Shown here piece after piece: positions 12,927-32,083 of a stretch of DNA of 38,759 nt; within the stretch, counting starts at the first letter, position 1; the number at the start of each line of letters is the position of its first letter. The DNA comes from Candidatus Omnitrophota bacterium. Its GTDB lineage: Bacteria > Omnitrophota > Gorgyraeia > VGKN01. The stretch covers positions 1-38,759 of the forward strand of contig JAGVOB010000087.1 in NCBI GenBank assembly GCA_020052955.1. The letters run 5' to 3'. Position numbers and translations under genes: made by a program. Under the pieces are notes generated by a model, which worked only from the letters and a program-made list of their open reading frames with translations, was not told the DNA's origin and ran no database searches.

Positions 12927-14183
12927 TTATAGGGCTCTAGTTACAACTTCAATAAGTTCATCTAAGGGCGGTGGAGAATTATTCGTAATGGTAATAACAA
13001 GCTGATTATAGGCTTGTTTATCTTCCCCTATGCCTTTAATGGGTTTAATTTCTGCATTTACTTTGTCTCCATATTGAACAATAACTTTTTTAATTTTTCT
13101 ATTTTCCATATTGGCTTCGAATAATGACAATATCTTTGATATATCCGAAAGTATTATTCTATCTCCTTGCTTCTTGGTTTCAAAACCTTTTACGCTGATA
13201 GAGTTTTTGGCAATATCAATCATAAATAACTGGACCTCAAAACCTGTAGCCTCAATAGATAGTTTTCCTATTCCTAAACTCTCCAATGCCGTCTTTATTT
13301 CTTCTATTCTTTCAGGAGCATATGCATATGCTCCACCTACTATATAAATTTGCATCTGAGAAATCTCATCAACAGTCAAATTATATTTATCCATCAATAA
13401 TCCTTTTATCTCAGCCAGGGAAGCAGGTATATCGCACATAACACTAAAATGGTCCACAAATCCTACATTCTTACCTCCTCTGGTTTTAACAATCCCTGCC
13501 ATTCCAACACATATTGTTAATCCGTATGTGCCTATTGCCTCTTTATCGCCTACAATATAGAAACTCTCTGCCACAAGTAAGCCATCTAAATCCTCTTTGG
13601 GAAATTCTTTTTGTATCTTAAAAATACTATAACGCTCTTCAATAATCACTCTGTGTTTAACTTGAGACAGACCATTATGGTTTTGTCCGCACCAAAATCC
13701 CCCGATGTTCCTTGGGCTATTTTCAACGGGTGATGATTTTTCAGTTTTTCCCCATATTTTTAGCGGCGGGCTTAAACAATCAGGAGCCTCGTGTCTTAAA
13801 GTAAACTTCAGCTGGCGAGAGTCTGCTTTAGCTTTAAGGGGGATTGGCTTGCCCCGTAACACAAACTCATCTGCCTGCCCTTGCCTATGCTGTAGGCTTG
13901 TATATTCTATTAGATGATTACCATCTAACGAGGAAGTAGCCTTTGTGGTATGGGGCTGGCGAGTAGCTATTATTTTATTAGTTTTAAATTGTGAGGTTAA
14001 AGAAAAATCGGGAGCCTTAGGGATAGAAGCGGCTATCAGCTGGCGAGTAGCCACCTCATCTTTCCCAATAAGGCTCCTGATAGAGTAATCTGGAGCAATG
14101 GAAGAGAGAATAAAACACTCTAAGACTGATATGGCTATCAGCTTAATAAATAGCCTTATGCGATAGGAATTATTATTTACCAT
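12927..14183 (-). CDS. Leader-bearing CheD-like deamidase candidate
   Basis: 418 aa. Residues 1-35 carry the shared leader (LIAISVLECFILSSIAPDY). About residues 36-150 hold the palindrome-coded peptide in one full copy (IRSLIGKDEVATRQL...KAPD), one degenerate copy (IIATRQPH) and one with a lost outer stem (KAKADSRQLK...EAPDCLSPPL). From about residue 165 the protein resembles CheD glutamine deamidases: a strand with Cys (YGLTICVGMAGIV, Cys near 225), then GFVDHF with His about 20 residues later, helices, and a VGGAYAYAPE segment like the GGA of CheD. CheD deamidates chemoreceptors, but no receptor or other che gene is here. Similarity is by eye and remote. The gene follows the HD/APH gene by 22 bp. 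Confidence 0.55.
   Translation of the reverse strand: MVNNNSYRIRLFIKLIAISVLECFILSSIAPDYSIRSLIGKDEVATRQLIAASIPKAPDFSLTSQFKTNKIIATRQPHTTKATSSLDGNHLIEYTSLQHRQGQADEFVLRGKPIPLKAKADSRQLKFTLRHEAPDCLSPPLKIWGKTEKSSPVENSPRNIGGFWCGQNHNGLSQVKHRVIIEERYSIFKIQKEFPKEDLDGLLVAESFYIVGDKEAIGTYGLTICVGMAGIVKTRGGKNVGFVDHFSVMCDIPASLAEIKGLLMDKYNLTVDEISQMQIYIVGGAYAYAPERIEEIKTALESLGIGKLSIEATGFEVQLFMIDIAKNSISVKGFETKKQGDRIILSDISKILSLFEANMENRKIKKVIVQYGDKVNAEIKPIKGIGEDKQAYNQLVITITNNSPPPLDELIEVVTRAL
13782..13829 (-). repeat. In-frame palindromic element, copy A1 (outer stem lost)
   Basis: The inner arms aaagtaaact (13798-13807) and agtctgcttt (13820-13829) flank the conserved loop (coding CTCGCCAGCTGA) with two mismatches. 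The left outer arm aggagcctc (13782-13790) is kept, but its partner is not found. It encodes KADSRQLKFTLRHEAP. Confidence 0.6.
13950..13970 (-). repeat. In-frame palindromic element, degenerate copy A3
   Basis: The loop fragment gctggcgag (13955-13963) is followed by tagct; the coding peptide is IIATRQPH. Only a weak stem remains. It is called because of its similarity to A2, just to its right. Confidence 0.35.
14010..14078 (-). repeat. In-frame palindromic element, copy A2 (covarying stems)
   Basis: Outer arms ggagcctt (14011-14018) and aaggctcc (14070-14077); inner arms ggcta (14031-14035) and tagcc (14048-14052). The loop is the same CTCGCCAGCTGA as in other copies, although both stems differ in sequence, pairwise compensated. 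Span 69 bp, 23 codons. Confidence 0.7.
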
Positions 14184-14205
14184 ATATCACCAATGTATAA
14201 ATAAA

Positions 14206-16134: not shown

Positions 16135-16140
16135 GGGAAC

Positions 16141-17052
16141 CTAGCGATAAATTACTTTGATAGAATCCCATACTAAATTTTGAAATTCTTCTTTGGTGAG
16201 TGGCTTTTTGTCTAATCTATCGTATGCTTCAACTGCTTGTCCAATTAACTCCTCTATTAAAGGAGTTGACTCTCCTAAAGAAGCAATGAATTCTTCAAAA
16301 GAAAGAGGTTGCGGAGATTGATTTAAGAGCAGTTCGGAGAAAAGCTGGTCTTCGGTTACTCCGTCCTTGCCAATAATTCTTGTATAAATTGCCTGCATTT
16401 CTTTATCGCTAAGCTCTTCTGTGCATAAACGCCTGATATCCCCTAAAACAGACAGCCAAGTAATAACCGTTTCCGAATCAGTTATTTCCATTGATTTATT
16501 TTTAGATAATTGCCTTAGAGTTTCGGTCTTACTTCTTATACCGGAAGCCGTGGTTGTACAATCACCGGGAATAAATACATTAAAATCTCCAGCGGCATCT
16601 TCAGCGCTAAGTCCGATACAGTAGTCTGTTTCTACGCCGACCATAATCAAATTTACTATACCTCTTTCTTTCAGATAGTCTCCAAGCGCGGGATTTCTTA
16701 ATGCGCTATATTGTCGTTTACTAAATAAAGATAAATGCCTGTTTTGCTGTAATTCTTTAAGTGGGGCTATTAATTCCTGGCCCCATGAACCATGTCTGCA
16801 GGGAAAATAGTCAGGATGGTCTCTAAATAATTCACAGTCTGTTGCACCATCGGAAGGGCCATAATCGGCCTGAATAAAAATTACTTCTATACCATTTTCT
16901 ATGGCCGTATTAATTACTTCCATTACATGAGGCAGGGTATTTTTTACGTGCCTGCGAGGTTTAAAATTTTGCACAGAAGAAGGGACTCTCAAACTATCCC
17001 GCTGGTGATTTTTTAACTTACTATGCCTATCATAATAGCCCCCATAGAACAA
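16141..17052 (-). CDS. Isochorismatase-like cysteine hydrolase, main part (frame-shifted from its N-terminus)
   Basis: 303 aa as an open frame from a TTG, but the true N-terminus is in the ORF at 17013-17441. Seen: the conserved lysine in LFSKRQYSALR and the nucleophile in GVETDYCIGLSAEDA, followed by PGDCTTTASG. The aspartate of the triad is in the other frame (VIDMQNDFC), so this part alone cannot be active. Such enzymes cleave amides or ethers (nicotinamidase and isochorismatase types); the substrate is not readable. A helical extension of about 100 residues follows the hydrolase, up to a TAG stop that is in frame with the HD/APH gene. Confidence 0.7.
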   Translation of the reverse strand: MFYGGYYDRHSKLKNHQRDSLRVPSSVQNFKPRRHVKNTLPHVMEVINTAIENGIEVIFIQADYGPSDGATDCELFRDHPDYFPCRHGSWGQELIAPLKELQQNRHLSLFSKRQYSALRNPALGDYLKERGIVNLIMVGVETDYCIGLSAEDAAGDFNVFIPGDCTTTASGIRSKTETLRQLSKNKSMEITDSETVITWLSVLGDIRRLCTEELSDKEMQAIYTRIIGKDGVTEDQLFSELLLNQSPQPLSFEEFIASLGESTPLIEELIGQAVEAYDRLDKKPLTKEEFQNLVWDSIKVIYR

Positions 17053-17441
17053 AAATCATTTTGCATATCAATTACTATGACGACACTTTTGCCGGTATAA
17101 ATATTTAGACTTCTATTTTTTGAATTAGGGGTATTCCCTGTGCGACCTTCAGCAACACGTTTCTTAGACCCTGAGGAGGATGGTAAAACTTCCCCAATCA
17201 CATCTTCAGCTTTATCTTTACCGAACTCGCTTGTAGCAAGCGGCGGTGCTAAACAATCAGGAGCCTCATGGCTTAAAGCAGACTTCAGCTGGCGAGAGTC
17301 TGCTTTTAGTGGGTGCGATGACCCGGCGAGGCTCCTAATTTGGTAGTCTGGCGCAATATTTGAGACAATAAAACACTCTACGGCTAACAGAGATATTAGC
17401 CGGATAATGCTATTAGTGTTATGAAATTTAAGGCTTTTCAT
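17013..17441 (-). CDS. Leader plus N-terminal end of isochorismatase-like hydrolase (5' fragment)
   Basis: 142 aa. The ATG at 17441 opens the shared leader (RLISLLAVECFIVSNIAPDY), then the palindrome-coded peptide (IRSLAG..PLKADSRQLKS..EAPDCLAPPL), a linker, and the first strand of an isochorismatase fold, VVIVIDMQNDFC. The frame stops soon after a run of five G (17039-17043). One extra G would fuse it to the ORF at 16141-17052, reading QNDFCSMGGYYDRH. A -1 shift, a real mutation or a base-calling error would explain this. GGGGG resembles a slippery run but does not make a canonical X XXY YYZ heptamer. It lies 65 bp after the methyltransferase gene. Confidence 0.7.
   Translation of the reverse strand: MKSLKFHNTNSIIRLISLLAVECFIVSNIAPDYQIRSLAGSSHPLKADSRQLKSALSHEAPDCLAPPLATSEFGKDKAEDVIGEVLPSSSGSKKRVAEGRTGNTPNSKNRSLNIYTGKSVVIVIDMQNDFCSMGAIMIGIVS
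17039..17043 (-). other. G5 run at the isochorismatase frameshift
   Basis: Five C on the plus strand (five G on the coding strand). The upstream frame has the VIDMQNDFC strand; the frame one base back carries the rest of the hydrolase. Adding one G restores a single reading frame across the site. Confidence 0.7.
17259..17336 (-). repeat. In-frame palindromic element, copy B (most perfect)
   Basis: Outer arms aggagcctc (17259-17267) and gaggctcct (17328-17336); inner arms aaagcagact (17275-17284) and agtctgcttt (17297-17306), both perfect. Span 78 bp, 26 codons, coding RSLAG...KADSRQLKSA...EAP. Confidence 0.85.
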
Positions 17442-17506
17442 ACTTTTTAATCTTTGGTTTTTAATTCATAAGTAAAAATACAAGCGTCCCCACATCATTT
17501 CACATT

Positions 17507-18898
17507 TCAGAGTTTGGCTTCCGATGCAACAGTTTCGACCGGGACAGGTGTGGCAGCTGGTTTATGAATTACGAAAAAGGCTGATGAAACACCGTGTAGA
17601 ACGCTTGGCCTTACTCCCCAATATTGTGCCTCAACTACTTCGAAACCGACTTCATGGAAGAACCTTTTCCACTCTCCCATTGTGTAATAACGGTAGGCCA
17701 TTGGCATTTCATATAAACCGCTAAAATAAATATTCCAATACCAGTCATTCCAGACTATCCATTGATATTTCTGTTCATCGGTTAAGTCGAGAAAATGCGA
17801 TGTGAGTTCTTCATCCATGGTTTCAAACGGGCAGCCAAAAGTAATTCCATCATTATCCGGATAACTATCTTCATAGATAACAACTTGGCCTCCGGAAGCC
17901 ATAACATCATACAGGTCGTTTAAGAATAAATGGATTTTTTCAATTGCATCTGGGTCGTGTGGACTAAAATATTCAGGATATATATGATGGATAACGCTGG
18001 CTATACGCGCAGAGGTAACAGTTCCACGGCCAATCTCATCCACCGCCAACCGATGAGTTTCTTGATGAATAAAGCGTATTCGGGAATCATCCTCATGGTA
18101 ATCGGTGACATCTGTACCTACGCGCTCTATATGACGCTTGGGGTGCCTATCAGCGAGTTCTTTGAGAAATCTGTTATACCCACACCCAACATCCAAGATT
18201 TTTGGACCCAAGTAAAACTGGTCAACATATTCAGCTTCCAGCCTTGTAGCTTTTCTAAAATAGCGCTCATAATGCTCCTTTTCAGCTTGTCGAAACCGAC
18301 CTTGAGGATTAGCAAAGTCAAAGACATATTCGTTCAAGTATCTTGCAGCTGAAGTTGAATCTCCCTCAAAGCGTTCTATCTCATTTAGTATGTTATCAAC
18401 CAATACTTCAATATCCTTATCTTGAAAAAAGTCAGGATAACGCGAATATTGTTTAATTAATAAATCGCGTATAAATTTGCGTAATACTGGGTCGCTTAAG
18501 GCTGCTAAAGGATTTGGCGCGGTGACATCAGTTTGGCCGGTTGTTTGGATTCCTTCAACTACACGTTTGGCAGCCCTCCCCTTACTCAACTCACCTATTG
18601 CAAGTGGCGGGGCTAAAAAGATAAAACTAGGAGCCTCAGCTCTTAAAGCAGACTTCAGCTGGCGAGAGTCTGTTTTAAGTGGGCACAGTGACCCGGCGAG
18701 GCTCCTAATATGGAAGTCCGTTGTATCATCTGTGATATCACATTCGGACGACATCCGCCGAAGTTCATCAAGACTTATAGTGGACGAAGGCCGATAGCAG
18801 TCGGAAGCTAAATTTGAGACAACAAAGCACTCTATGGCTAACAGGGCTATTAGCCTTACTGCAAGTGGCTTTACGTTATAAAAGTGTTTGTTAAACAA
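17507..18898 (-). CDS. Leader-bearing SAM-dependent methyltransferase
   Basis: 463 aa. The start is TTG at 18898, one base after the stop of the 2714-aa gene. It aligns with that gene's start (MFNKHFYN versus MYNKHSYN), which supports the TTG. The leader RLIALLAIECFVVSNLASD is followed by an extra stretch of about 25 residues not seen in its sisters, then the palindrome-coded IRSLAG..PLKTDSRQLKSA..EAP. From about residue 220 a class I methyltransferase is visible: motif I ILDVGCGYNRF, an acidic end of strand 2 (VGTDVTDY), and later ASGGQVVIYEDSY. The acceptor is unknown. It is probably translated by coupling. Confidence 0.75.
   Translation of the reverse strand: MFNKHFYNVKPLAVRLIALLAIECFVVSNLASDCYRPSSTISLDELRRMSSECDITDDTTDFHIRSLAGSLCPLKTDSRQLKSALRAEAPSFIFLAPPLAIGELSKGRAAKRVVEGIQTTGQTDVTAPNPLAALSDPVLRKFIRDLLIKQYSRYPDFFQDKDIEVLVDNILNEIERFEGDSTSAARYLNEYVFDFANPQGRFRQAEKEHYERYFRKATRLEAEYVDQFYLGPKILDVGCGYNRFLKELADRHPKRHIERVGTDVTDYHEDDSRIRFIHQETHRLAVDEIGRGTVTSARIASVIHHIYPEYFSPHDPDAIEKIHLFLNDLYDVMASGGQVVIYEDSYPDNDGITFGCPFETMDEELTSHFLDLTDEQKYQWIVWNDWYWNIYFSGLYEMPMAYRYYTMGEWKRFFHEVGFEVVEAQYWGVRPSVLHGVSSAFFVIHKPAATPVPVETVASEAKL
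18629..18706 (-). repeat. In-frame palindromic element, copy C
   Basis: Outer arms 18629-18637 and 18698-18706; inner arms aaagcagact (18645-18654) and agtctgtttt (18667-18676), with one G-T pair. Span 78 bp. Confidence 0.8.
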
Positions 18899-18899
18899 A

Positions 18900-21800
18900 T
18901 TATATACCCTTTCTGATTTTATCCTCTGGCAGCGGGAACTTTATAGTAATCTCAACATTTTCATCTATATTCTCTGTGGTGATTTTGCCATCTACTGCCT
19001 CAATTAAATCATGTATAAGGGGACCTTGATACCAGGGTTCATCTCTGGTCCTTTTAGGCTTAAACATCGTTTCTAAATCAACTTGCCCTTTATACGTAAT
19101 TTTAAATACAGTACAGTCATCTTCTCCTTTTACCTCAACATATAAATCTTCTCCCTTGGTTTTACAGCGGAACATATTGAGCATAATATTGTCTAAGAAA
19201 AAGTCGTTTAACCAGAGTCTTGTGCCGGGCTCAACCATAAAATGAAACTTTTCATTTCCGTGCATCCGCGAGTCTTCTGCAGGATATAAAGAAATATCTA
19301 AAAGCTCCTTTTCATAAAATTTTTGGGCATATAGCAGTTTTAGGACAATCCGGCTCTTTGAGACAATTTCTTTAACTTTATCTAGATCTTCATTATCCCT
19401 ATCTTCCAAAGGAACACCTTCTAGCGCTTTTTTTAGCCTTTCTTCCGCGTTTATCAATGCCTTTACCTGGTCAGAGATTGCACCAACCCAACCATCCGTT
19501 CTTTCTATCCATAAAATCGCGTTCTCATCATCTTCAAAACCTGACAGTTGATTTTCAGAGGAGGTATAGGTATGTATCATACCGTACACCTCATCAGGTA
19601 ACTCCTCCCTGAAAGACCTCTCAATATAATCTTGTGTCCCTTGTGAAATCTTACCGCGACTGCACAGAAAGTACCAAGAACTACCTATCAATCCTACGTC
19701 ACCTCCGAGTTTATGAATTGCATAACCGACTTGGCGTAATACCCTTTGATATTTTTCCCTTAACTGCGGCGTGATTCCCTCTTTTTCTTTTAGGACGTTT
19801 TCTTTGGAGCGAAGTAAAATCTGAGCCCTTCCTCCTGCGCCATACTCAAGCACAACGGCCTGCCTTGGTGGTAAAAATGAAAATATGATATCTTCTTTTT
19901 TCTCTACTTCTTCAAGTGCAAGCAAGGAAAGTAAGAGGCCTTCTATCTCTCCTTGTGTTGTGCCCTTCTCAAAAATAATATCACGGAATACCTGATAATC
20001 TCCTGTGCATATATTCTGGAAATAGACAGGGAGCATTTCCTCTATCTTATACCTCATTTGCTCATGGCCACGTGCCAAAAAGGACTCGTATGATATCGTT
20101 TCTCTTGTCTGTGTTATTTCAGAAATTTTAATACTATATGCATAGATTTCCTTCACAATCTTCTCCGCACGTTCCTCTGCGTCTGGAATGCCGCGCTTGG
20201 AAAATATCTCGTAAACTTGCTGCACAAGTTTTTCTGGAATCTGCAGTTTCTTCTGCGCAATGTTCTTCCAATCAAGCGGAAGTTTAATTGAAAAGTGTGC
20301 ACCCTTGCCTTCATTACTTGCAGCGATTGTTCCATCAAACATCTCAAGAAGCTGTCTTGCCCAGAAAAGCCCGTAGCCGCTATGTTGAGGTTTTGTGCTG
20401 AATTTTCTCTGGAATATATTGGGCAACATCTTTCTATCTATACCGCCTGCCTCATCCCTTATTGAAATTTCTAATATATTTTCTTCTTTGTTAACCTTAA
20501 AGTAAACCTTGCCTTTAAACTCTGTTCCATATTTCAGCTGGTATTGGTCAAATGCATTATCCAGAATATATGAGACCACAAAGCTAAGACCATATGGCAA
20601 TTCTAGACCTTTAAGATTATCTCTATCAAAATCGGTTTCAATACTAACTCTATCTGCATAATCAGCGAGAAATACCTCTACTGTATTACGCAAAAATTCA
20701 TCAAAGGTAACAGATGTCTCTATGTTGCCAACGGCAGACGACAACCGTAAAAGTCTTAACATATAATTTGCTGCAACCCCCATTGTTAGGGAAAGACTGT
20801 CTAACTGCTTGATGAAGGGCTCATATTTTCTTTTCTCTGATAGACTGAGGGATTCTATTTCTTCTCGTATCTGTGGGATCAGATAGCTTGCAACGTAGAA
20901 GATACGTCCTTTATAATTGTGAGTGCGCGCATTAAAAGGAAGGTTCCTGTCAACATTTCCAAAATTAAAGAATGCACTCATCCTTGAAAGATGTTCTTCT
21001 ATTTTCTTTACTTTCTCTTTGTCCTTCAGTTGCGGAGAGAATTCTGTCAACGAACCTTTTAACTGCCTGAGACCTATCATAAGTCTTGCTTCAAAATCAT
21101 TGACTCCACCGTTTAAGAAACTGATATCGGCGGGCTTTGACATCTCTTTCTTGGGAAGGGCATCAACGATAACCTGGCTAATTTGATAAGGGCTTTGGAG
21201 TCTTGCATAGATCATATTAAGCAGGGTTATGGGAAAATTCTCATCGGCATTTTTTTCAATATAATCAATTCCGTATTTTGTCTTAAATTCAGGGTCAATA
21301 TCCTTTGCAGATTTGTTAAAGACAGGTATCTGGTCTTTGGAGATAATGCTTCCGGAGATAAAGAAGAAGAACCCCTTAAAGTTGAGCGTCTCTTTTTCAT
21401 AACCAGAATCTGGATGTAGCCTTAACATATTCAGGAGATCTCCGCCATCAGAACGCCTTATTCCTGTCTGTTCTGTTCCAAATTCATAATCGGCAAGTAT
21501 TATTATTTTTTCATCGGGAACGCCTTTGGCTCGTAATTCCTTTACCAGCGCTACCACATCTTCAACTGTTCCTAATTTGTGGGTGTTTTCAAAAAATCCC
21601 TTCACTATCGCGCCAAAGGCATTTCTTATGAACGGCTTATCATCCGCAATGATTATATGGCAATCCTTAAAGTGTTCTATTACGCCTGGCGAGACTTTGA
21701 TATCCTCTGGTTTTATCTTAACTGCCTCAAGCGGTAATTCTTCCTCTAAAATTCTCGTATCTATAACCTCCTGAGCTTTTATCTCTTCGCCTCTTGCAAA

Positions 21801-24800
21801 GGCTAAAATCCGACCTTTTATAATCTCAAACGCTCCTGCATCATGTTTTAATTGAACAGAAATCTGGCCCTCTAAATACATATCCCACAGGTCAGGATAA
21901 AGTCTGAGTTGTTTTATAATCGGTGTATCATCAGCAGAATATATGACAACCTTTCCCTTAAAATTATATTTCCTGAATGCCTGTTTACAAAGCTGCACTC
22001 CATTCACGGCATCCTGATCTGGCCTTTCAGGGTCAGAAGTAAAGGTATATAAATCTAGAGGGTCAAGTCTAAAGTCAAGTACTAAAAAGTTAATAGCTGG
22101 ATTTTCAGCCAACATCTTAATACCCTCATCCATGTTATTTGCGGTTTCTATTGACGAGATTTCGGGAGAGGCTAACATTTTTGTCGTTGCCTCAAGCATA
22201 TTACGATCATCATCCACAACAAGGACTTTCACCTCAACCATTTCCTTATCTTTGGCAGGTTTTAAAATCTCTTCAAGTTTTGGTTCTATTTCTGCCCAGT
22301 CATCCCTTGAAGGCCTGTATCGGCGCTCGGGGAAGCCTGTTTTAAGAAGCTCCAATACCTCATCGGCATGTGTTTTTGCAGCTTGGGTAAGTTGGTATGT
22401 TGCCCCTTTAGTTTTTGCTCGGCCATCTCTGTGTACCAAACCTCTTACTATAAGAGCTCCTAGGTCTGTTTCAATGGTGCTTGGGGCACGTTCTTCTCCT
22501 AGATTTTCTATTATTTGCTCTATAGTAAGCGGCTCCGTAGCTTGTGCGAGAACTTTAAATACTGCATACGGCGAAGCGGCTGGTGGTGTGATTTTACTCT
22601 CAGGGGTTTCAGGGGAAGGTCGCTTAAACCCTATATCGGTCAAGAGATTCTGCACCGCCTCCGGCCAGGATGTACCGCTTTTGCGGTAACTAGCAACTAA
22701 TCCCCGCAATGTCATATTGTTTAATTCCGGAACTCTTTCATAAAAGTCCGTGAAGGTAAGGTATAAGGGATGCTTGCCTCTAACAGCGGCTAACATCTCT
22801 ACCATTTTTCTCTTAGCCCCCGTAGAGACATCCTGCCAGCGATTAACCCTGTGGGTTCTATAGTACTCCGTCTCTTCTTCAACCGAAATCTCTTTAAAGC
22901 CGAGTTTTTCCTTTATTTTAGCGGCTATATTTTCTGCTTCCTCCTCTGCCCCTCCTTCACGGATATAAGTTTGAACCAATGCAGATAACGACTGCCCGCC
23001 AAATACATCATATTTATGGCGCGTTAAATCTTGATAGGTAAGTTTTATAGGTGGTTTGCCTAATTCTTCCGCTGCCAATTCCAAGAACCGCGCCCTGACT
23101 GCATCTGGTACTTTCTCCCAGCGTATATTAGTCGTCTTAAAAAGCTTAAGCCATTCTTCAAAAGGGACAGACTTTCTTTCCTGGGCAAGGTTTTTAACCT
23201 TATCTGCAGTTTTTTCTAATCCCTGGGCGATAATTATTATCATTACCTCATCAGGAAAAACCCACCTTCCATAACTGTCGAGTAATTCTTTTTGAAGCGT
23301 TAATGCCTTTTCAAGCCAATGTTCGGCGTTTTCCAACCCCTGTCGGATAATCACATCTATAATATCGTCTTTGGTGAGGCGCAAAGAGTATTTGGCCAAC
23401 AATTGCCCTGTCTTCTGCCGAATCTGTTCAAGCTGGCCAATAAAATCAGGGTAGTTATTGATAATTAATACAGTGTCTCCTGGCGAAAACCCATAATCAT
23501 CTAATATCCTGTTGAATGTATCCGGTAAAACTAAACGCATTATTAGAAAATTAATCCATTTCTCAGGATAACCTATTTGTCTATAATAAACTATTCCCTG
23601 CGAAACCTTCCCCATCAAGCCATTTATTTTAAATTCCCTTAGTTCATCAATCGCGTCCCGCTCGTCTAAAGTTAGCACACCCTCTTTAATCAGCCAGTTA
23701 AATGACTCTTCTCTGGATCTTACTAATGTATTACTAACTATCTCGGCGTAAGGCTCTTCTAACCCGGCATCAATCAGATTTTTATAAAGCCGTTCATAAT
23801 ATGGCTCTTCGGCCATGGTAAGCGGCCCTCCCTTTTTACCCCAACCGGGCAATATACGCTCCCTGCCAAGTGCCAGCTCAGGGCTGTCATGTCTTCTTTT
23901 TCTTGATTGGGCTTGTAGTTCGGCGGGTTGGGCTGACACAGTGGCGGATTCGGCTAGCGCTAAAATCTCTTTAAGCCTTAGCTCAATAGTAACCCACTCT
24001 TCATTTCTGGGACTGTATCCGAACTCTTCTACTAGGTTATGAAGAAGTTGAAGTATTTTATCAGCATTCTCTTTTGCTGCTGTGGTTAGCTCATAGGTTG
24101 TGGTAGCTGCATCCTTTGCAAGACCTTCTCTATGAATTAGATTTCTTACAACTAGAGAACTGATGTCTCTTTCGATTGTGCTTGGGGCACGTTTTTCTTC
24201 TAATCTGGCTATAATTTCCTCAATGGTGAGCGGCACGCTGGTTCCTTTAAGGACCCTAAATACCGCATATGGGGAGCCGGAGGGTAGTCCCTTAGTATCG
24301 GCTACAGAATAGAGGTCATTTGGCGTATATAGCCGAACACCGTGAACAATTAACCAGTCTCCCGAACCTAGATTGTTCATGTACTCAGCTAATGCAGAAA
24401 CATAATCTGGAGTAGCAATATTCACTTCCCAAGACTGCCAATCAGTTATGGCCCCAATTTCAATCTCTCTATAAATAGTCAAGGCTTCCGGAGCCCTGTT
24501 AGGAACAACAATAATCTCTACGCCAGACGGACATGCATTTCTTACAATCTGCTCCAGGGCTTGAGGAACTAATATTGCTTGAATCGCTTCAGGCGGAATA
24601 TGGGAAAATCCCATCTCATGGGCCTGGGTTCCATCAAAATGAACACGATTTAAATATTCTTGGTCAGCAGGACTTAGTTTGTCAGGATCAGCTAAGATAA
24701 CAATGCTAGAGCGAGCTCTTTCCTCAAGCAGTTTTTCTATATCTGGTTTAGTTATATTTTGAAAATGTTCAGAATCGCCGGTTCGTTCCATTATTACCTG

Positions 24801-27044
24801 CAGAATTCCTTTAACCGGATGGTAAACTGCATCCTCGCTAACTGACTGATTGTGTCCTTGATGGCCCGAAAGGACCATATTGCAAGAACTAACCCCAAGC
24901 AAAACATCTCTACTAGAATCAAAATCAGCTGATTCAAGAACATCCCTCCCGCGCTTTTTCTGTTCATCAGGAGAAAGGATTCCTTCTTTAAATATACTAG
25001 CAAGAGCTTTCTTAGATTCTGCTAGTGCGGTATCCTCAGGCTGTATGTTCAATGAATAGAAGATTATTTCAGTCTTCGACGCTTTCAAATACTCATCAAG
25101 AACATTGGGATTCTTAAGGTAATACTGGGCAAATATGGTGCATCTTTCGCCCTCAATAGGCTCATCAACTACTTCAAAAATATGCCAATTAGGGTTTTCC
25201 GCATCACCGATATATTTTCTGATATTCTCTCTTTTTTGAACATCTTCAATATATATCGGAATCTTTCCCGATTTTCTCTCTTTGGATATTACCGCCTGGG
25301 TTATAAGTTTTGACATATCATGGGTGGGATTTGGAATCAAAGCAAAACCACATCTCAAAAGTTCCTTTACTATCAATGGATTCCTAACATATGTGTATAA
25401 GGAATCGGATCTTCGCCCTGTAAATACACCCTCCCTTAAACCTTTTAATACTACCTCAAGGAAAGCCGATGAATAGCCGCTGCTCCTGAAGGCTGACTCT
25501 ACATAAACATAATTCATCAAAAATCTATTAGGCAGTATCTGCACATAACCTACTCGTTCATGAGATTCGTTATAAAAAAGTATGTCAAAATCGACGCTAT
25601 TCTTCTCGTTTCTTTTGTACATATAAAATTTTTCTCCATATTCAGTAATTAAAAATCCTATTTCTTCCTCAGCTTGTGATGCGGCGGATTCGGCTGGCTG
25701 CCCTTTGGTTTTGCTCGTGATAAGCGCGGTGGCGATGCCGGCTTTTGATGCAGCGGTTATTGCATTTTTAAGCCGCTCACTTGCTGCAGCTTCATCTACA
25801 ATAAGACGCGCCTTAGTTTGCTTTATATAACCTGCTGGATTATCAGGGGATAATTCCCCAAGCGCTACTACGTCAACTGATGGAATCTTGTCTTCACCGT
25901 TTGCTATAACAACATTTGTTTCTGTTTCCTGTAGTATTTCATACATACCTGTGGTATTTGCATAAGCCCTCGGCATTCTGCCTTCTCTAAGGGCGCTTTC
26001 TATTCCATCGATACCTAATTGTTCAATCTCCTGCTCAGTAAGGCCTACCTGTTTTTGTATCCCTATGTTGTCTCTGTTTGAATAAATTGTCCTAGGAATT
26101 AATTCAACCCTTCTTGTGCACATTTCGGGTGTAGACCCTCTTTCATCAAATGCCAGATGCACCTCTTCATAACTACCATCAGGCATAAGGCGCGCTTTGC
26201 CAAGGCCGTATAAACCCGCATGAGCCTTATGCGGGCCGTTAGGCCTTGCCCTTTTAATCTCTCTATCAAACACTTCTCTATACCTGTCTACTGGCAGGCT
26301 AGATATCCCTTTTTCTTCAAATTCCTTTATTCTTTGCCTGTATTGCTCTACATTAGCGGCAGGCCATTCTGATTCAGGGTCAACGAGGCAATAAACTCCA
26401 GGTAATGGTTTATTTAATTTTTTAAGAGGCTCTATAAGATTCCTACAGATATATTCGTGATAGTCAAAACTGGTTCCACCATACTCATCAAGCATAAAAA
26501 TAATAACCCTTGACCAATCTATATTATCCATTTGAACAAGCAGCTCATATACACCCGCCGCGCCCGTTCTCTCATCTTTGAGCGGTGTATTTCCTGTGAG
26601 CATTCTTATAACTGCAATTTCATCATTCGCATGAGCCTTTAATATCTCATCATGAATAATCCCTACCGCAGTTTGTGCCATATGCCCCTTATCCCTGGTG
26701 ATTGCAACCTCAAAACCAGGAAACTTGTCAGGGAACAACTTTATAAATCTTGGAGATTTTTCAAGAGCATCTTTACTCACTTCTTTTAGATGCCTTATAG
26801 CGGATTTATCCCTTCTTAGTTTACCTGTTGTAAGTGGCGGTGCTAAAAAGATAGAACTAGGAGCCTCTGGCTTAAAAACAGACTTCAGCTGGCGAGAGTC
26901 TGCTTTAAGGGGGGATGGATTCCCGGCGAGGCTCCTAATATAGTAGTCGGGAGCTAAATTTGACATAATAAAACACTCCATGACTAATATCGCTATTAGC
27001 CTTACTGCAAGTGGATTTAAGTTGTAAGAGTGTTTGTTATACAT
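18900..27044 (-). CDS. Giant leader-bearing multidomain sensor/regulator (NagB-like, GNAT, wHTH, receivers, histidine-kinase-like ATPase)
   Basis: 2714 aa. Order: leader (1-35) and palindrome peptide (to ~75); NagB/gluconolactonase-like domain (~85-400; FMLDEYGG near 181, VHLAFDERGS near 290, where the usual Asp two before the His is Glu); GNAT-like acetyltransferase (~455-580, AFRSSGYSSAFLE); unassigned ~600-900; first winged helix (~925-1020, SPYAVFRVL); a helical middle; second winged helix (~1490-1580, SPYAVFKVL), clearly a duplicate; receiver 1 (VLVVDDD near 1603, LVLDFR as phosphosite); receiver 2 (IIIADDK near 1795); an HATPase domain (~2100-2240: DNAFDQY, DEAGGID, SGYGLFWARQ); and a degenerate second HATPase-like end (~2600-2710: DNIMLN). 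No clear kinase H-box is seen. It probably integrates signals; output is unknown. Confidence 0.8.
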   Translation of the reverse strand: MYNKHSYNLNPLAVRLIAILVMECFIMSNLAPDYYIRSLAGNPSPLKADSRQLKSVFKPEAPSSIFLAPPLTTGKLRRDKSAIRHLKEVSKDALEKSPRFIKLFPDKFPGFEVAITRDKGHMAQTAVGIIHDEILKAHANDEIAVIRMLTGNTPLKDERTGAAGVYELLVQMDNIDWSRVIIFMLDEYGGTSFDYHEYICRNLIEPLKKLNKPLPGVYCLVDPESEWPAANVEQYRQRIKEFEEKGISSLPVDRYREVFDREIKRARPNGPHKAHAGLYGLGKARLMPDGSYEEVHLAFDERGSTPEMCTRRVELIPRTIYSNRDNIGIQKQVGLTEQEIEQLGIDGIESALREGRMPRAYANTTGMYEILQETETNVVIANGEDKIPSVDVVALGELSPDNPAGYIKQTKARLIVDEAAASERLKNAITAASKAGIATALITSKTKGQPAESAASQAEEEIGFLITEYGEKFYMYKRNEKNSVDFDILFYNESHERVGYVQILPNRFLMNYVYVESAFRSSGYSSAFLEVVLKGLREGVFTGRRSDSLYTYVRNPLIVKELLRCGFALIPNPTHDMSKLITQAVISKERKSGKIPIYIEDVQKRENIRKYIGDAENPNWHIFEVVDEPIEGERCTIFAQYYLKNPNVLDEYLKASKTEIIFYSLNIQPEDTALAESKKALASIFKEGILSPDEQKKRGRDVLESADFDSSRDVLLGVSSCNMVLSGHQGHNQSVSEDAVYHPVKGILQVIMERTGDSEHFQNITKPDIEKLLEERARSSIVILADPDKLSPADQEYLNRVHFDGTQAHEMGFSHIPPEAIQAILVPQALEQIVRNACPSGVEIIVVPNRAPEALTIYREIEIGAITDWQSWEVNIATPDYVSALAEYMNNLGSGDWLIVHGVRLYTPNDLYSVADTKGLPSGSPYAVFRVLKGTSVPLTIEEIIARLEEKRAPSTIERDISSLVVRNLIHREGLAKDAATTTYELTTAAKENADKILQLLHNLVEEFGYSPRNEEWVTIELRLKEILALAESATVSAQPAELQAQSRKRRHDSPELALGRERILPGWGKKGGPLTMAEEPYYERLYKNLIDAGLEEPYAEIVSNTLVRSREESFNWLIKEGVLTLDERDAIDELREFKINGLMGKVSQGIVYYRQIGYPEKWINFLIMRLVLPDTFNRILDDYGFSPGDTVLIINNYPDFIGQLEQIRQKTGQLLAKYSLRLTKDDIIDVIIRQGLENAEHWLEKALTLQKELLDSYGRWVFPDEVMIIIIAQGLEKTADKVKNLAQERKSVPFEEWLKLFKTTNIRWEKVPDAVRARFLELAAEELGKPPIKLTYQDLTRHKYDVFGGQSLSALVQTYIREGGAEEEAENIAAKIKEKLGFKEISVEEETEYYRTHRVNRWQDVSTGAKRKMVEMLAAVRGKHPLYLTFTDFYERVPELNNMTLRGLVASYRKSGTSWPEAVQNLLTDIGFKRPSPETPESKITPPAASPYAVFKVLAQATEPLTIEQIIENLGEERAPSTIETDLGALIVRGLVHRDGRAKTKGATYQLTQAAKTHADEVLELLKTGFPERRYRPSRDDWAEIEPKLEEILKPAKDKEMVEVKVLVVDDDRNMLEATTKMLASPEISSIETANNMDEGIKMLAENPAINFLVLDFRLDPLDLYTFTSDPERPDQDAVNGVQLCKQAFRKYNFKGKVVIYSADDTPIIKQLRLYPDLWDMYLEGQISVQLKHDAGAFEIIKGRILAFARGEEIKAQEVIDTRILEEELPLEAVKIKPEDIKVSPGVIEHFKDCHIIIADDKPFIRNAFGAIVKGFFENTHKLGTVEDVVALVKELRAKGVPDEKIIILADYEFGTEQTGIRRSDGGDLLNMLRLHPDSGYEKETLNFKGFFFFISGSIISKDQIPVFNKSAKDIDPEFKTKYGIDYIEKNADENFPITLLNMIYARLQSPYQISQVIVDALPKKEMSKPADISFLNGGVNDFEARLMIGLRQLKGSLTEFSPQLKDKEKVKKIEEHLSRMSAFFNFGNVDRNLPFNARTHNYKGRIFYVASYLIPQIREEIESLSLSEKRKYEPFIKQLDSLSLTMGVAANYMLRLLRLSSAVGNIETSVTFDEFLRNTVEVFLADYADRVSIETDFDRDNLKGLELPYGLSFVVSYILDNAFDQYQLKYGTEFKGKVYFKVNKEENILEISIRDEAGGIDRKMLPNIFQRKFSTKPQHSGYGLFWARQLLEMFDGTIAASNEGKGAHFSIKLPLDWKNIAQKKLQIPEKLVQQVYEIFSKRGIPDAEERAEKIVKEIYAYSIKISEITQTRETISYESFLARGHEQMRYKIEEMLPVYFQNICTGDYQVFRDIIFEKGTTQGEIEGLLLSLLALEEVEKKEDIIFSFLPPRQAVVLEYGAGGRAQILLRSKENVLKEKEGITPQLREKYQRVLRQVGYAIHKLGGDVGLIGSSWYFLCSRGKISQGTQDYIERSFREELPDEVYGMIHTYTSSENQLSGFEDDENAILWIERTDGWVGAISDQVKALINAEERLKKALEGVPLEDRDNEDLDKVKEIVSKSRIVLKLLYAQKFYEKELLDISLYPAEDSRMHGNEKFHFMVEPGTRLWLNDFFLDNIMLNMFRCKTKGEDLYVEVKGEDDCTVFKITYKGQVDLETMFKPKRTRDEPWYQGPLIHDLIEAVDGKITTENIDENVEITIKFPLPEDKIRKGI
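26859..26936 (-). repeat. In-frame palindromic element, copy D
   Basis: Outer arms 26859-26867 and 26928-26936; inner arms aaaacagact (26875-26884) and agtctgcttt (26897-26906). Span 78 bp, placed just after the leader of the 2714-aa protein. Confidence 0.85.
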
Positions 27045-27132
27045 TTCTATCCAACTTCCTTAAGTGTTTAACAAAACCTTTAGTAACTAAGGACAAAAAA
27101 TCATCATTGTCTATGCCTAATAAGTTAAACAT
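27037..27132 (-). CDS. Small ORF, 31 aa, coupled to both neighbours
   Basis: Its ATG (27132-27130) overlaps the TAA of the 1567-aa gene in the form TAATG. Its own TAA (27039-27037) overlaps the start of the 2714-aa gene as ATGTATAA. A GGGAG box lies upstream within the previous gene. The peptide starts MFNLLGIDNDDFLSLV and ends in a basic tail (KHLRKLD). Double coupling of this kind is typical of operons and makes a real peptide plausible. The AAGGA box for the next gene would lie inside it, so it may also act as a translation-coupling leader. No family is recognised. Confidence 0.5.
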   Translation of the reverse strand: MFNLLGIDNDDFLSLVTKGFVKHLRKLDRNV

Positions 27133-30100
27133 TATAGCTTCTCCCTTATTTTATCTGCTACTTCAAGAGTTGTTGCATAGTTCGGTATTTGTCCACCTAT
27201 AACAGGGCCTATTAGATTTAAAATAAAGGTATCTTTATTCTCCACCTTTAACGTACCGTTTAACGCCATTAAATAAGAAATACCCTTTAACAGTGAAGGG
27301 ATTTGGTCTAAAGCTATCCCATGGTTTAATAAGATTCCATATTCTACTTCTTCAGTACTACCGAGTTTATTTTGAATATCGATATAATCATCTGAATTAG
27401 AGATTAAGGCGCTAAGTTTATTAGTATCAATACTACGCGCTTCTTTTCCTGCGCGTATATCTATTTCGCCTAATAGGGTCTCCGGTGCACCTATAGCGCG
27501 GAGGCTTTCTATTATTTCTTGTTTGGTTACTGTTTCTGTTTGTGAAAATACTACAAGCTTATTACCTAGCGCTCTTGCAAGCGTAAGGGCTTCAATAACA
27601 TCAAACATAGCATACGTAGAACCTCCCTTATAGGAAAGGCTAAGCGTATTAAATGAAATCGCTATGGTCTGGCCTGTTTCTTTTATTTCTGTTTTCTCTG
27701 CATTACCTACTGCTTTTATTAGATTGCTAAGGTCGGGGATTTCTTCTGCAACACCTTTCGCGATAGGCCCTACCATAACAAGTGAGGCTAACGGCGATGT
27801 AGAATAGCCTTTAATTTCTTTGCTTACAATTTTGATAACTACAACTCCCTTAATTAAGGAGACCTTTTCTAGTTTTATATTCTGTTTTGAGGCGCGTTCT
27901 TCAAATTCACCCCATAATCTATTTGCATCCTCATCAGTAGCGCCAACTCGCGATCTGGCATAAATAAACCCTCCTTCCTTCATTATCCGCAATATCTCAT
28001 CGATAGCGATAGAACGTTTATCACTCAGGATAAAATTGTGGACATCGCGGTAAATAGCTTTTGTGAAGCTATTATCTCCAAACATACTCATATCTTCCGC
28101 GCCTCCTGCAAAGAACTGCAAATTTGGCGCTCTAGATGTTTCTGCATTCTCAAGCTCTATTTCAGATATCAAGCTATCCATATCTACAGTCTCATCACCA
28201 TTAATTGCTGCTTTTACCCTGGGATGTTTTGAATACCTTGCAATCCTTTCTGCCAAGGAAATATTACCTGCATTATCAATACCTGTAATATTGGCGACTC
28301 TATCAGCTATACCAATAGAAATAAATCCAGTTCCGCATCCTATATCAAGCACATCATCATGTTTAGATAATCCAAGCAGCTCAACAATTTCCTCAACAGA
28401 ACCATATTTATAATCTTGGGTAACAATCAATGGTGCTTCTCTGTCTATGGCTGATGTGGCTTGTGCGGTGACAGCGGCTGTTGGCATGTTCTTAGCAGAG
28501 ACAATCTTTTCGTATATTCTTGAAAGGTCTTTCTGCGGGTTAGCAAGATAATCCTTAGGCGCTTCGGCAGGCTTTGAAATAGCAGCCTCAAGCTCAAATG
28601 TTCTTTTTGCCTTTATATCTCTTAATATTGTTGCTATAGTCTTGTTAAATACAGATAAATCGTAATTTACAGTTGCCGGAATTATTCGCCTAGTAAGCTC
28701 TTCAAATGTGAAATCTCTTCCTTCAAAACCACTCCCCATTAGAACGGAGATATAGAGGACCTTAAGCGTTAAACTATAATCTTCTACCTCTTGCGGCATA
28801 GCCTCAAGTAACGCCTTTAATGCATTTATTCTTTTAAGCTCTTCAAATTTTGCCATAGCAGGCTTCTGTTGCTTGTTTTCCTCATTATAGAATACAATCC
28901 TGTGGCCATCCTCGGTAACCATAACATCTTCATCCCTCATAAGCCTTGCCTCATAAAACTCTCTTGATGCTTCAGGATCTATTTCATCTTCCCGATCTTC
29001 AACAGGGATAGGGCTTAACCTATCGATAACCTCATATGTCATACCTATTTCCTGCTGAATAGGAACTACCGTTGCCTGTAGAGACGCTGCCTTTGCCTGA
29101 TAAAGTGCGAGATTTGACCCAAAGAGAGTATATTTCTGAAGAGTCCTTTCTATTATATTAAGTAAAGTTGGTAGTTGAGTTTTTAAATATTCATCCAGTG
29201 CTTCTGGTTTAATTTGGCTATCCCGTCTGAGTTTAACCCAGGCGTAAAATCTATCGGGAGACTGCCCGGGAGGCGCGCGCGCTATCTCAATCTCAAAATC
29301 ACTTCCAAATAACTTCTCTACCTCCATATTTATCAAATACCCGAAAATCCTTATTGCCCAGTCCGCATCGAACATATGGCCGGGCAACTCCTCATTAAGC
29401 ATACCAAACTTATAGAAGCCTCTCAGGTAGGCGCCTTTATGAATATTCCCCAACTTTTCTTCTCTTTGCACCGCTTCAGCGAATGTCCCGGGCTTATCTA
29501 TCAAAGCACGAAAATCCCCCCACTGGATATCAAGCGCAATTAATCTGCCGGCTGAATCACGCTCCATCTTTCTGTCGTAATCTATTTTCCCTCGCAGTGC
29601 CTGATAATTTAAGACGCAGGGGACTACTGTATCTCTGTCGCCAAAGGGTAAGCTGTATGAGTTTTGCTTAATATCCTGTTCTATCGTATCCTGGTCAGCC
29701 GAATTGGTAAATATGGCGGATAAACTACGAAGACCCGGCATAATATTCCCCCACTCATGAAACCAACTATTAACGTCCAAGCCTTCAAAATAGGAAAAAA
29801 CATGATTCCTGTCTCCCTTTTTCCTTTCATACAGCTGTGGGGCTTGGCTTATCTTCTTTGCCTCACTTAGGGCGATATTTGCTCCAGCCATAAAGGTATC
29901 GGCATTCAAACTCCTTCCGGTTTGTTCTATCGCGCTACGCATCTTCCCGTCCACATAAAGCGCTCCCATAGAGCCTGTAAGCACTGCCACTTCCGATAAC
30001 TCCTCAGAAATAACGCTAAATACACCTTCCCTATATCCAAGCTGCTTAAATGCTTCATCAAGTTCTTCTAACCTGTCCTTAATATATAAAACGGATATTC

Positions 30101-31835
30101 GTTCACCCACCCTGTCAAATGCTGCTATAACACCCCTATCATCCAACTCCTGTAATACATTCATAATCTCATCTTCTCTTCCCTTATATAAAGGATCTTC
30201 CGGAAATAGATAAAAAGCTCCATATGTCTTTCTTATTCTATGCGGCAGGCTTAAACGCGCAATATCAAGTATTACTCTAATGTCTGTCTCGCTTAGACCG
30301 TCCGATTCAAAAACAGAACCAAATTCATCTCCGCCTCTTCGGAAGGGCACCATATTAAGGCTGTCCGGTTCTTTTTTAAGCATACTGGCTATATCTGCAA
30401 AATTACATGCCATCTCATAAATCATCCAATCCACAATCTTTTTGCCAAGCGCATCGTTTCGCTTCTTAATTGCATCGCCGTCAAAAACAACAGCCGTAAA
30501 ATCCTTACCGGCCGTGGCAAGCTTTTCCATCTCGGTCTTTGCATAATTAAATGAATATACATGCCTTAAGGCAAATCTGCTGGCTTCTTCAAGAAAGTTC
30601 AGCGTGATTACGCCTGATTTATTAAGTTGCCTCAATTCTAAAAATATATTTATTCTTGTTTCCTCTTTCTCTTCTGCTATTTCAACCAAACGTTCAATAT
30701 CATTTTGTCTGTGCAATGATTCAACCTTATCTTGGAAGCTATCCAATTTGCCTTGGAATTTATCCAGCATTTCATCAGCTCTGATTTCTGTTGTTTGTTC
30801 GGTTCCATCGCCTTTTAATTTATAGGTAAAGGTATATGAGCCTATCCCTGCCTTTAGAGTTAATTCTGTTATATCTTCTTTGTCAACGTGTAGCATGCGA
30901 GCTAAGACTGCCCTTTCGAATACCAGCGCCTCGTGATATAACTCATGTTCAAGGCCTACCTGAAGAAGATATTTTTTGGATATGGTATGCAGCTTAAAGA
31001 ATGCCTCGTTTATATAGATGAAGCCGTCTCCTAGGCAGTTACCGAATAGACGGGGCGAGCTTTTGACCATCGCTATTACGTATGGTTTATCAGAAGGCGG
31101 TTCGCTTAAATCCGCCTGGGCAAGCGCATTTTCTAAACCGGTTATTATCGCCCCTTGTGTCTTTGTGATAATCTCGGCTTGTATCAAAAAAGTTCTGCCC
31201 TTAATTTCCCTTACTACAAATCTTATTTTTGTCTCGGGTAAATATTCTCCCTCTACGGTAAGGGTGATTCTTTCCCCGTCATTAAGACCTTGTGCGTACC
31301 GTTGCGTCGCTTGTTTCATTATCTCTGGCACAAGATTAAAGACAGAAGCTCCCCCGTCCATAGATATAATACTGTCTCCTCCGGATGAGTCTCTTATTTT
31401 TATAGCGTTTCCATCGCCGTAATTATCTTTTCTCTGGGTCCCCGATATATGAAAACTCTGGGCTGAGGCAATAAAAGAACTTTTGGTGGGTGTTCCTTCG
31501 GCCAATACCCTTGCTTCTTCTATGACTCTCTTGCGGGCAGATTGTGCCTGACCTCCGCTTAACAAAGGCGGGACTAAATAAGAATTAGGAGCCTCTTGGC
31601 AAAAGACAGAGTTCAGCTGGCGCGACTCTGCTTTAGCTTTAAGGGGGGATGGTAACCCGGCGAGGCTCCTAATATTTAACCCCTCTACAGAATCTTTTAC
31701 AACGGAATGAACTTTCTCTAATGGGGTAAACTCATTTAATGGGATTGGAAAATTAGAAAGGATAAATATTTCTATTACAATAATAGAAATAATCTTAAAG
31801 GTAGATCTAAATCTCGAAGACTGCCAGCTAAGCAT
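27132..31835 (-). CDS. Giant leader-bearing protein with HELYH motif, GGDEF domain and SAM methyltransferase
   Basis: 1567 aa. The leader (FKIISIIVIEIFILSN) is the most divergent of the five, then comes the palindrome peptide IRSLAGLPSPLKAKAESRQL. About residue 296 the sequence GLEHELYHEA matches HExxH, suggesting a zinc-binding site; no third ligand was confirmed. A GGDEF domain follows: DGDAIKKRNDALGKK near 455, FRRGGDEFG near 498, and ADTFMAGANIALSEAKK plus DRNHVF later, separated by an insert of about 100 residues. It may make cyclic di-GMP. From about 1150 a class I methyltransferase is seen (VLDIGCGTGFISIG near 1160). The C-terminal ~200 residues are not recognised. GAGGA precedes the ATG by 5 nt. 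The cytosolic domains sit oddly with an export-like leader. Confidence 0.75.
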   Translation of the reverse strand: MLSWQSSRFRSTFKIISIIVIEIFILSNFPIPLNEFTPLEKVHSVVKDSVEGLNIRSLAGLPSPLKAKAESRQLNSVFCQEAPNSYLVPPLLSGGQAQSARKRVIEEARVLAEGTPTKSSFIASAQSFHISGTQRKDNYGDGNAIKIRDSSGGDSIISMDGGASVFNLVPEIMKQATQRYAQGLNDGERITLTVEGEYLPETKIRFVVREIKGRTFLIQAEIITKTQGAIITGLENALAQADLSEPPSDKPYVIAMVKSSPRLFGNCLGDGFIYINEAFFKLHTISKKYLLQVGLEHELYHEALVFERAVLARMLHVDKEDITELTLKAGIGSYTFTYKLKGDGTEQTTEIRADEMLDKFQGKLDSFQDKVESLHRQNDIERLVEIAEEKEETRINIFLELRQLNKSGVITLNFLEEASRFALRHVYSFNYAKTEMEKLATAGKDFTAVVFDGDAIKKRNDALGKKIVDWMIYEMACNFADIASMLKKEPDSLNMVPFRRGGDEFGSVFESDGLSETDIRVILDIARLSLPHRIRKTYGAFYLFPEDPLYKGREDEIMNVLQELDDRGVIAAFDRVGERISVLYIKDRLEELDEAFKQLGYREGVFSVISEELSEVAVLTGSMGALYVDGKMRSAIEQTGRSLNADTFMAGANIALSEAKKISQAPQLYERKKGDRNHVFSYFEGLDVNSWFHEWGNIMPGLRSLSAIFTNSADQDTIEQDIKQNSYSLPFGDRDTVVPCVLNYQALRGKIDYDRKMERDSAGRLIALDIQWGDFRALIDKPGTFAEAVQREEKLGNIHKGAYLRGFYKFGMLNEELPGHMFDADWAIRIFGYLINMEVEKLFGSDFEIEIARAPPGQSPDRFYAWVKLRRDSQIKPEALDEYLKTQLPTLLNIIERTLQKYTLFGSNLALYQAKAASLQATVVPIQQEIGMTYEVIDRLSPIPVEDREDEIDPEASREFYEARLMRDEDVMVTEDGHRIVFYNEENKQQKPAMAKFEELKRINALKALLEAMPQEVEDYSLTLKVLYISVLMGSGFEGRDFTFEELTRRIIPATVNYDLSVFNKTIATILRDIKAKRTFELEAAISKPAEAPKDYLANPQKDLSRIYEKIVSAKNMPTAAVTAQATSAIDREAPLIVTQDYKYGSVEEIVELLGLSKHDDVLDIGCGTGFISIGIADRVANITGIDNAGNISLAERIARYSKHPRVKAAINGDETVDMDSLISEIELENAETSRAPNLQFFAGGAEDMSMFGDNSFTKAIYRDVHNFILSDKRSIAIDEILRIMKEGGFIYARSRVGATDEDANRLWGEFEERASKQNIKLEKVSLIKGVVVIKIVSKEIKGYSTSPLASLVMVGPIAKGVAEEIPDLSNLIKAVGNAEKTEIKETGQTIAISFNTLSLSYKGGSTYAMFDVIEALTLARALGNKLVVFSQTETVTKQEIIESLRAIGAPETLLGEIDIRAGKEARSIDTNKLSALISNSDDYIDIQNKLGSTEEVEYGILLNHGIALDQIPSLLKGISYLMALNGTLKVENKDTFILNLIGPVIGGQIPNYATTLEVADKIREKL
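31587..31670 (-). repeat. In-frame palindromic element, copy E (compensatory inner stem)
   Basis: Outer arms 31587-31595 and 31662-31670. The inner stem has cagagt (31607-31612) pairing with actctg (31625-31630), a paired change relative to copies B-D, which have cagact and agtctg. Span 84 bp, 28 codons; two extra codons duplicate KA. Confidence 0.8.
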
Positions 31836-32001
31836 TTTAGTCCTCAGTGATTACTAAATACTTTTTAAATTTATTAACTTATCTGCCAAATAAAAAAGCC
31901 TTTAAGCCAGCTATTATTAAAGACTTATTTTATATCTATATTAAGTATATATTATATATAAGAAAAAATCAAGGCTGGGGAGAAAAATTATGGGTTATGA
32001 G
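31836..32001. other. Presumed promoter region of the leader-gene operon
   Basis: A 166-bp AT-rich stretch before the 1567-aa gene. On the minus strand TTGATT (about 31973-31968) lies before a TATA-rich tract, but the spacing to a -10 box is not decisive. I looked for a riboswitch suited to a GGDEF gene and saw none. Confidence 0.35.
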
Positions 32002-32083
32002 TTATCCCGAATGAGGCTACTTTCTTCAGAATAACTTCGGGATCCCGATGTGCCGCTTCGTAGAACTACATCATTCGGGATAA
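32002..32083. repeat. 82-bp element with perfect 13-bp terminal inverted repeats, copy 2
   Basis: ttatcccgaatga (32002-32014) and tcattcgggataa (32071-32083) are exact reverse complements. It matches copy 1 (8821-8902) with 7 differences by eye. It ends 8 bp from the ogt stop, so both copies sit right behind a minus-strand gene. Confidence 0.8.

Follow-up and report, generated by a model that had tools for sequence, protein, structure and literature searches.

A family of short nested palindromes lies in frame within the 5′ parts of adjacent genes on contig JAGVOB010000087.1 of a bacterium assigned to Candidatus Omnitrophota (assembly GCA_020052955.1), a stretch of 38,759 nt hereafter called the window, to which all gene and copy coordinates refer. 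We favor, somewhat above even, the interpretation that these elements form a family of short coding palindromes that works like the Rickettsia palindromic elements (RPEs) and that has spread by duplication of the leaders that contain it and by local copying. A first-pass annotation had reported seven copies in five genes. Six of these stand, A2 being only a fragment; a tandem pair found on contig C41 raises the total to eight copies in six genes, every one inside a leader.

The core element, bounded by AGGAGCC and GGCTCCT and located on the minus strand of the window, comprises an outer stem (TTAGGAGCCTC/GAGGCTCCTAA, 11 pairs in the covariance model) that encloses an inner stem (AAAGCAGACT/AGTCTGCTTT) around a near-constant 12-nt loop, CTCGCCAGCTGA. 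Copies B to E also contain a small GGG/CCC side hairpin, giving a possible three-way structure, while A1 and F are devoid of it. The loop is found five times exactly in the window, plus once in a one-mismatch version in copy E (CGCGCCAGCTGA), and matches with at most two mismatches amount to seven against 1.87 expected, a number reached in 0 of 100 shuffles. Folding of six tested copies yielded z-scores of -4.7 to -6.9 relative to shuffles, and the nested organization proposed earlier holds. The window cores measure 69, 78, 78, 78 and 84 bp and copy F measures 69 bp; all these lengths are multiples of 3, and each intact core, F included, begins at codon phase 0, in agreement with the initial reading of the complete copies as in-frame additions. 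The encoded peptide, IRSLAG..PLKADSRQLKS..EAP, follows the hydrophobic N-terminal segment RLIAILVxECFIxSNxAPDY and precedes a LAPPL motif.

Stem positions change in pairs, as had been claimed. In the seven-copy alignment, double-sided changes affect 10 of 24 pairs, compared to 2.8 in shuffles (0/500), and at most 4 pairs with double changes remain when the partners are slid by 1-3 columns. A model-based alignment returned 11 double-change pairs versus 4.0, a slightly inflated figure given that its 9 rows include the reverse strand of one copy; the shuffle controls ignore the relatedness of the copies. Specific compensations include CAGAGT/ACTCTG in E and, in A1, GGCTA/TAGCC in the inner stem and CTT/AAG in the outer stem. 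A1 is the strongest single case: compared with copy B, it has an identical loop but differs at 7 of the 10 positions in the 5′ arm of the inner stem, and its inner stem GAGGTGGCTA/TAGCCGCTTC pairs at 10 of 10 positions (8 Watson-Crick and 2 G-U), a pairing matched by 18 of 200,000 random genomic 32-mers. A1 shows a contiguous block change (AGACT/AGTCT to GGCTA/TAGCC), and its peptide reads EVATRQLIAAS in place of KADSRQLKSAL; because the peptide changes while the pairs hold, peptide conservation fails to explain the pairing in A1. At silent sites of the loop, CGC and CTG are kept in six copies even though they represent 12% of Arg and 14% of Leu codons, respectively, in the sampled sequences. 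On the coding strand, G-U pairs outnumber A-C mismatches by 13 to 6 (p 0.08), or by 7 to 3 (p 0.17) in the six intact copies alone, a result suggestive of RNA-level selection but not decisive. Finally, each of the six genes keeps one hairpin whose outer stem is intact, whereas A2, A3 and G, the additional copies, decay. This pattern favors some constraint in situ and is based on two genes with extra copies.

Comparison of the elements with their leaders revealed conflicting histories. Between the leader of E and the leaders of C and D, identity is 59-60%, close to the background level of gapped alignment, while the element of E is 86-88% identical to theirs. In a tree of 11 leader peptides over 36 columns, E groups with element-less leaders with a support of 91/91, although no fork reaches the stricter "starred" level. 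Likewise, B and D share 95% identity in their elements and 72% in their leaders, whereas D and F share 81% in their leaders and 78% in their elements (z 3.1 for this incongruence). These conflicts indicate that the element was copied between leaders, by insertion or gene conversion, and the presence of E in a leader of the element-less type argues that the copies do not simply descend from one inherited leader. On these alignments, the element appears INDEPENDENCE from leader, that is, it seems to move independently of its leaders. The scenario that had been set against the original proposal, namely a single inherited leader without significant covariation, is thus only half borne out: every copy does reside in a leader, but covariation exceeds the controls and E occupies a leader of the other type. 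Copy A3 is itself mosaic, resembling E in its left part and B in its right part. GCTCCnGATT-like repeats are found at both ends of A, B, D and F and are missing at E, and the sequences of E and C part abruptly from D about 4-6 nt beyond the outer stem.

Twelve leaders of this general type score well in the genome, and six genes carry the element. Four element-less leaders, read from sequence, pass directly from the hydrophobic segment into (A/S)P.E(K/R)L(A/V)PP, so that the linker in which the element sits is also present where the element is not. The leader on L030/C144 is element-less, and the one on C113 has no model match. A covariance model built from seven copies and run on this 2.38-Mb, 95%-complete genome recovered all window copies except A2, plus the tandem pair on C41, and gave no further sense-strand match up to E=10; weak matches on the opposite strand are the palindromes themselves. 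The search suggested at the outset thus enlarged the family, but it returned no copy outside leaders.

The genomic context is decisive for the interpretation of the family. We surveyed repeats in 473 kb distributed over 42 pieces, a non-random sample of about a fifth of the genome in which some pieces were picked for leaders. Of 152 internal short-repeat places, 19 fall within open reading frames (ORFs) of at least 150 aa, several of which are internal protein repeats rather than inserts. RibD (L080:4303-4362) contains an in-frame extra segment compared to Bacillus subtilis RibD (2b3z), identical over 54/54 nt to L089:1749-1802. HolB, the delta′ subunit of DNA polymerase III, carries an in-frame hairpin repeat (L108:6151-6207) from a family with about 30 matches. 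The lnt ORF (3301-4908, minus strand) contains a strong palindrome, TTAACCCCGC/GCGGGGTTAA, with nested hairpins at 4187-4293, present as a single copy in the sample; it is located within a linker of this apolipoprotein N-acyltransferase that is ~36 aa longer than in Escherichia coli, and is likely an in-frame insert. A radical-SAM ORF carries two repeats, both probably in frame. In-frame repeats in housekeeping genes of the same genome strengthen the analogy with RPEs drawn in the first-pass annotation. The HolB-type family is also informative about covariation. Sixteen of its 18 aligned copies (L108:6156-6203 and 17 further) lie outside ORFs of 150 aa. The stems of the family (ATCC/GGAT, TTCC/GGAA and GACC/GGTC) show compensated changes, and a bulged G is conserved. 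Its double-change cells number 23 versus 8.2 in shuffles (0/500), while its count of double-change pairs, 4 versus 2.7 (55/500), is unexceptional. Because this mostly intergenic family covaries too, covariation in the leader family is no proof of function there.

RPEs are short palindromes found in frame in protein genes; the peptide that they contribute typically falls in segments without structure (PMC2996958, PMC10969869). The leader family resembles them as a hairpin-forming palindrome inserted in frame at a linker position of protein genes, but RPEs measure about 150 bp and occupy many unrelated genes, whereas the core described here is 69-84 bp long and confined to one leader type. Given the lack of observed dispersal to unrelated genes and of an evident sequence link, we do not class it as an RPE. 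The leader peptides had no NCBIfam match at E<=1, in a release that may or may not hold RPE models. Palindromic coding repeats from Wolbachia and Methanocaldococcus jannaschii (cited in PMC2996958) are likewise in-frame coding palindromes; they belong to other phyla and are likened here by description only. PARCELs (palindromic amphipathic repeat coding elements) are coding repeats with dyad symmetry in membrane-targeted proteins (PMC2996958), but they form 25-residue tandem arrays matching DUF285/TIGR02167, a match that Pfam and NCBIfam scans did not return here. Repetitive extragenic palindromic (REP) sequences are short and occur many times per genome (PMC3733652); they differ in being 20-40 bp long, extragenic and tagged by GTAG or CGTC, while the leader element is coding, larger and untagged. 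A terminal inverted repeat of ~12 bp around a small unit recalls miniature inverted-repeat transposable elements (MITEs), and other MITE-like repeats abound in the genome, but no consistent target-site duplication was found in the leader family. As for structured cis-regulatory RNAs, covariation does exceed controls, yet the mostly intergenic family largely shows the same, so that this feature is not diagnostic; a search of Rfam gave no match at the gathering threshold for the element.

We propose that a hairpin unit of ~70-85 bp, which would have arrived as a discrete insertion, entered leaders of the exported type in frame between the hydrophobic segment and the LAPPL motif. It would then have spread within the leader set through gene duplication, intragenic duplication (in gene A and in F-G) and local copying from one leader to another. 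The conserved loop may once have served a copying agent, and the added peptide was presumably tolerated in an unstructured linker. Pairing would be upheld by selection at the nucleic-acid level, by correction of one arm from the other through template switching, or by both. Several points weigh against this scenario. Eight copies are few for covariation statistics, and the leader tree rests on 36 columns. Gene conversion among neighboring genes would produce the same incongruence, and the leader of E could instead have diverged quickly. No copy was detected beyond one leader type by the covariance model in this 95%-complete genome, which leaves mobility to unrelated genes unsupported, and neither a transposase nor an empty-site orthologue was found among the genomes compared, this genome being the only one of its order.

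An appreciable, although clearly less probable, alternative is that the hairpin is an RNA element of this gene family, either bound by a protein or slowing the ribosome ~36-65 codons into the gene for targeting of the hydrophobic segment, and kept by selection in each gene. The confinement of all eight copies to the 5′ coding regions of leader genes points in this direction, as do the single hairpin with an intact outer stem kept in each of six genes while A2, A3 and G decay, the constant loop amid stem arms that both change amino acids, and the G-U excess of 13 to 6. This explanation has to contend with other leaders of the genome that do without the element, with a G-U excess that is not significant, with a distance to the start codon that varies from codon 36 to codon 65, with the absence of an Rfam match and with covariation in a mostly intergenic repeat family. 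A version in which a coding palindrome was recruited as a functional mRNA element of exported-leader genes and kept once per gene, acting through binding of a dedicated factor or through a ribosome pause that times membrane targeting, seems to us a touch more doubtful still. Less probable again, and in our opinion unlikely, is that the palindromes have no function and that one arm is simply corrected from the other during replication. Template switching is documented to create multi-base compensatory changes in stems (PMC8794818) and to homogenize the arms of inverted repeats in coding DNA (PMC8604942), and can therefore yield compensated stems without selection; the compensated stems of the mostly intergenic family and the contiguous block change in A1 are both consistent with it. 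However, template switching can also invert spacers, whereas the loop has one orientation in all copies, the two G-U pairs of A1 are unexpected under exact copying, and the constant loop sequence and its silent sites are left unexplained. The earlier suggestion that the structure has a role of its own is weakened accordingly: loop conservation and compensated stems hold, but template switching can account for the latter and a mostly intergenic family is compensated too.

Two further explanations appear very improbable. The hairpin could be a DNA recombination site, recognized as a folded single strand, that swaps a shared leader among genes of the cluster; the conflict between leader and element histories, the mosaic structure of A3 and the orphan leader with two copies on C41 are compatible with this idea, but no recombinase gene was recognized among the leader genes and ordinary gene conversion between neighbors suffices. 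Faring worst of all, selection on the peptide RSLAG..SRQLKS..EAP, with the palindrome as a by-product, is largely refuted: the R, the Q and the RSL..AP ends are conserved, and the peptide adjoins the conserved LAPPL motif, but most stem residues change in A1 while all inner pairs hold, silent loop positions are conserved, and slid pairings lose the covariation signal.

Protein-coding palindromes have been described in a small number of lineages (Rickettsia, Wolbachia, one methanogen and the PARCELs); their mode of spread is unsettled, as is the reason why they remain palindromic. Several such families occur together in the present genome, inserted in frame in RibD, HolB, other genes and leaders, with intergenic copies as controls, and the coexistence of coding and non-coding copies makes selection versus template-switch correction testable.

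We also searched for relatives of the element. The genus, family and order of the host consist of this genome alone. Element-less paralogous leaders were found, without a close orthologue among the genomes compared, and an orthologue search for gene E gave partial domain matches only. The covariance model detected no convincing copy among 384 genomes of the class; one match falls inside a coding sequence that resembles an oxidase gene, and another is an unrelated conserved hairpin in another genus. A conserved hairpin of one other genus (L048, L049 and L050, around base 1500), GGGAGGCAAACTC..GAGTTTGCCTCTC, lies near TTGACA/TATATT-like sequences, has no Rfam match and is possibly an undescribed small RNA. 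A loop-only search of the genome gave five extra one-mismatch matches on other contigs, none recovered by the covariance model; the one inspected (L010) is in a ribosomal-protein gene region. The pattern GGAGCCTN{20,50}AGGCTCC had no match, its spacing being too short to span the element. A protein-profile search of 384 genomes of the phylum returned no more than weak hits, to the hydrophobic N-terminal ends of large proteins, and protein scans of genome contigs and viral contigs found no relative. With a DNA pattern in three parts, 18 matches were obtained in genomes and 2 in viruses; by eye, several resemble REP-type repeats of Verrucomicrobia, and none has a good model score. Searches of plasmid and phage DNA were negative.

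Table 1. Element copies and host genes. Coordinates are those of the window unless another contig is given; CM, covariance model score.
Feature	Position	Strand	Description
Copy A1	14010..14078	-	Intact, 69 bp, codons 36-58 of gene A; stems GAGGTGGCTA/TAGCCGCTTC, the most divergent of all; CM 68 bits
Fragment A2	13955..13971	-	About 13-17 nt, left half of inner hairpin (AATAGCTACTCGCCAGC); missed by covariance model
Copy A3	about 13772..13867	-	9/10 pairs kept in the inner hairpin; outer stem with intact 3′ arm but missing 5′ arm; CM 64.9 bits
Copy B	17259..17336	-	Intact, 78 bp, codons 36-61 of gene B; CM 101.5 bits
Copy C	18629..18706	-	Intact, 78 bp, codons 65-90 of gene C; CM 97.4 bits
Copy D	26859..26936	-	Intact, 78 bp, codons 37-62 of gene D; CM 99.9 bits
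Copy E	31587..31670	-	Intact, 84 bp, compensated pair C-G to G-C; CM 89.4 bits
Copies F and G	G000:C41:3857-3938 and 3761-3851		Tandem pair on another contig of the same genome
Gene A	12927..14183	-	418 aa, no Pfam match, leader ECFILSSIAPDYS; holds A1, A2 and A3
Gene B, 5′ part	17013..17441	-	Leader and element B; leads into isochorismatase domain
Gene C	17507..18898	-	463 aa, leader, element C, methyltransferase-like
Gene D	18900..27044	-	2714 aa, leader, element D; domains of histidine-kinase ATPase and response-regulator type
Gene E	27132..31835	-	1567 aa, leader, element E, methyltransferase domain

Some host genes and leaders have peculiarities of their own. The isochorismatase region of gene B is split over two frames, a 142-aa leader ORF followed by an ORF at 16141-17052 (overlap 17013-17052, minus strand), which corresponds to a frameshift, a pseudogene or an assembly error. 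In the leader of gene C, a second, unrelated in-frame insert of ~80 nt (18707..18790, minus strand) lies immediately upstream of element C; it is flanked by GACTGCTAT / GACTTCCAT when read against gene D and contains the perfect palindrome TGTGATATCACA. An element-less leader of this type also begins a 20,415-aa open frame (G000:C94:13886 onward), beside which lies an 8,666-aa frame on the same contig.

Other repeats of the genome deserve mention. One dispersed, structured repeat family of 124 bp has 47 match places in the genome. Its copy at 32620-32749 (minus strand) makes up the C-terminal end of a GxxExxY-type ORF (32618-32938), which looks truncated and fused to the repeat, and further copies are in frame within larger ORFs (L105, L046). 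In an lptE-like ORF (37044-37637), a repeat at 37522-37616 (minus strand) forms the N-terminal part, upstream of the LptE domain, and has an 84% identical copy at L087:2597-2691. Two intergenic copies of an 82-bp palindromic repeat (8821-8902 and 31994-32083) are 91% identical, with relatives in L097, L099 and L103. Finally, prfB, encoding release factor 2, retains at about 12690-12720 (minus strand) what appears to be its usual programmed frameshift site (AGGGGGTATCTTTGAC).

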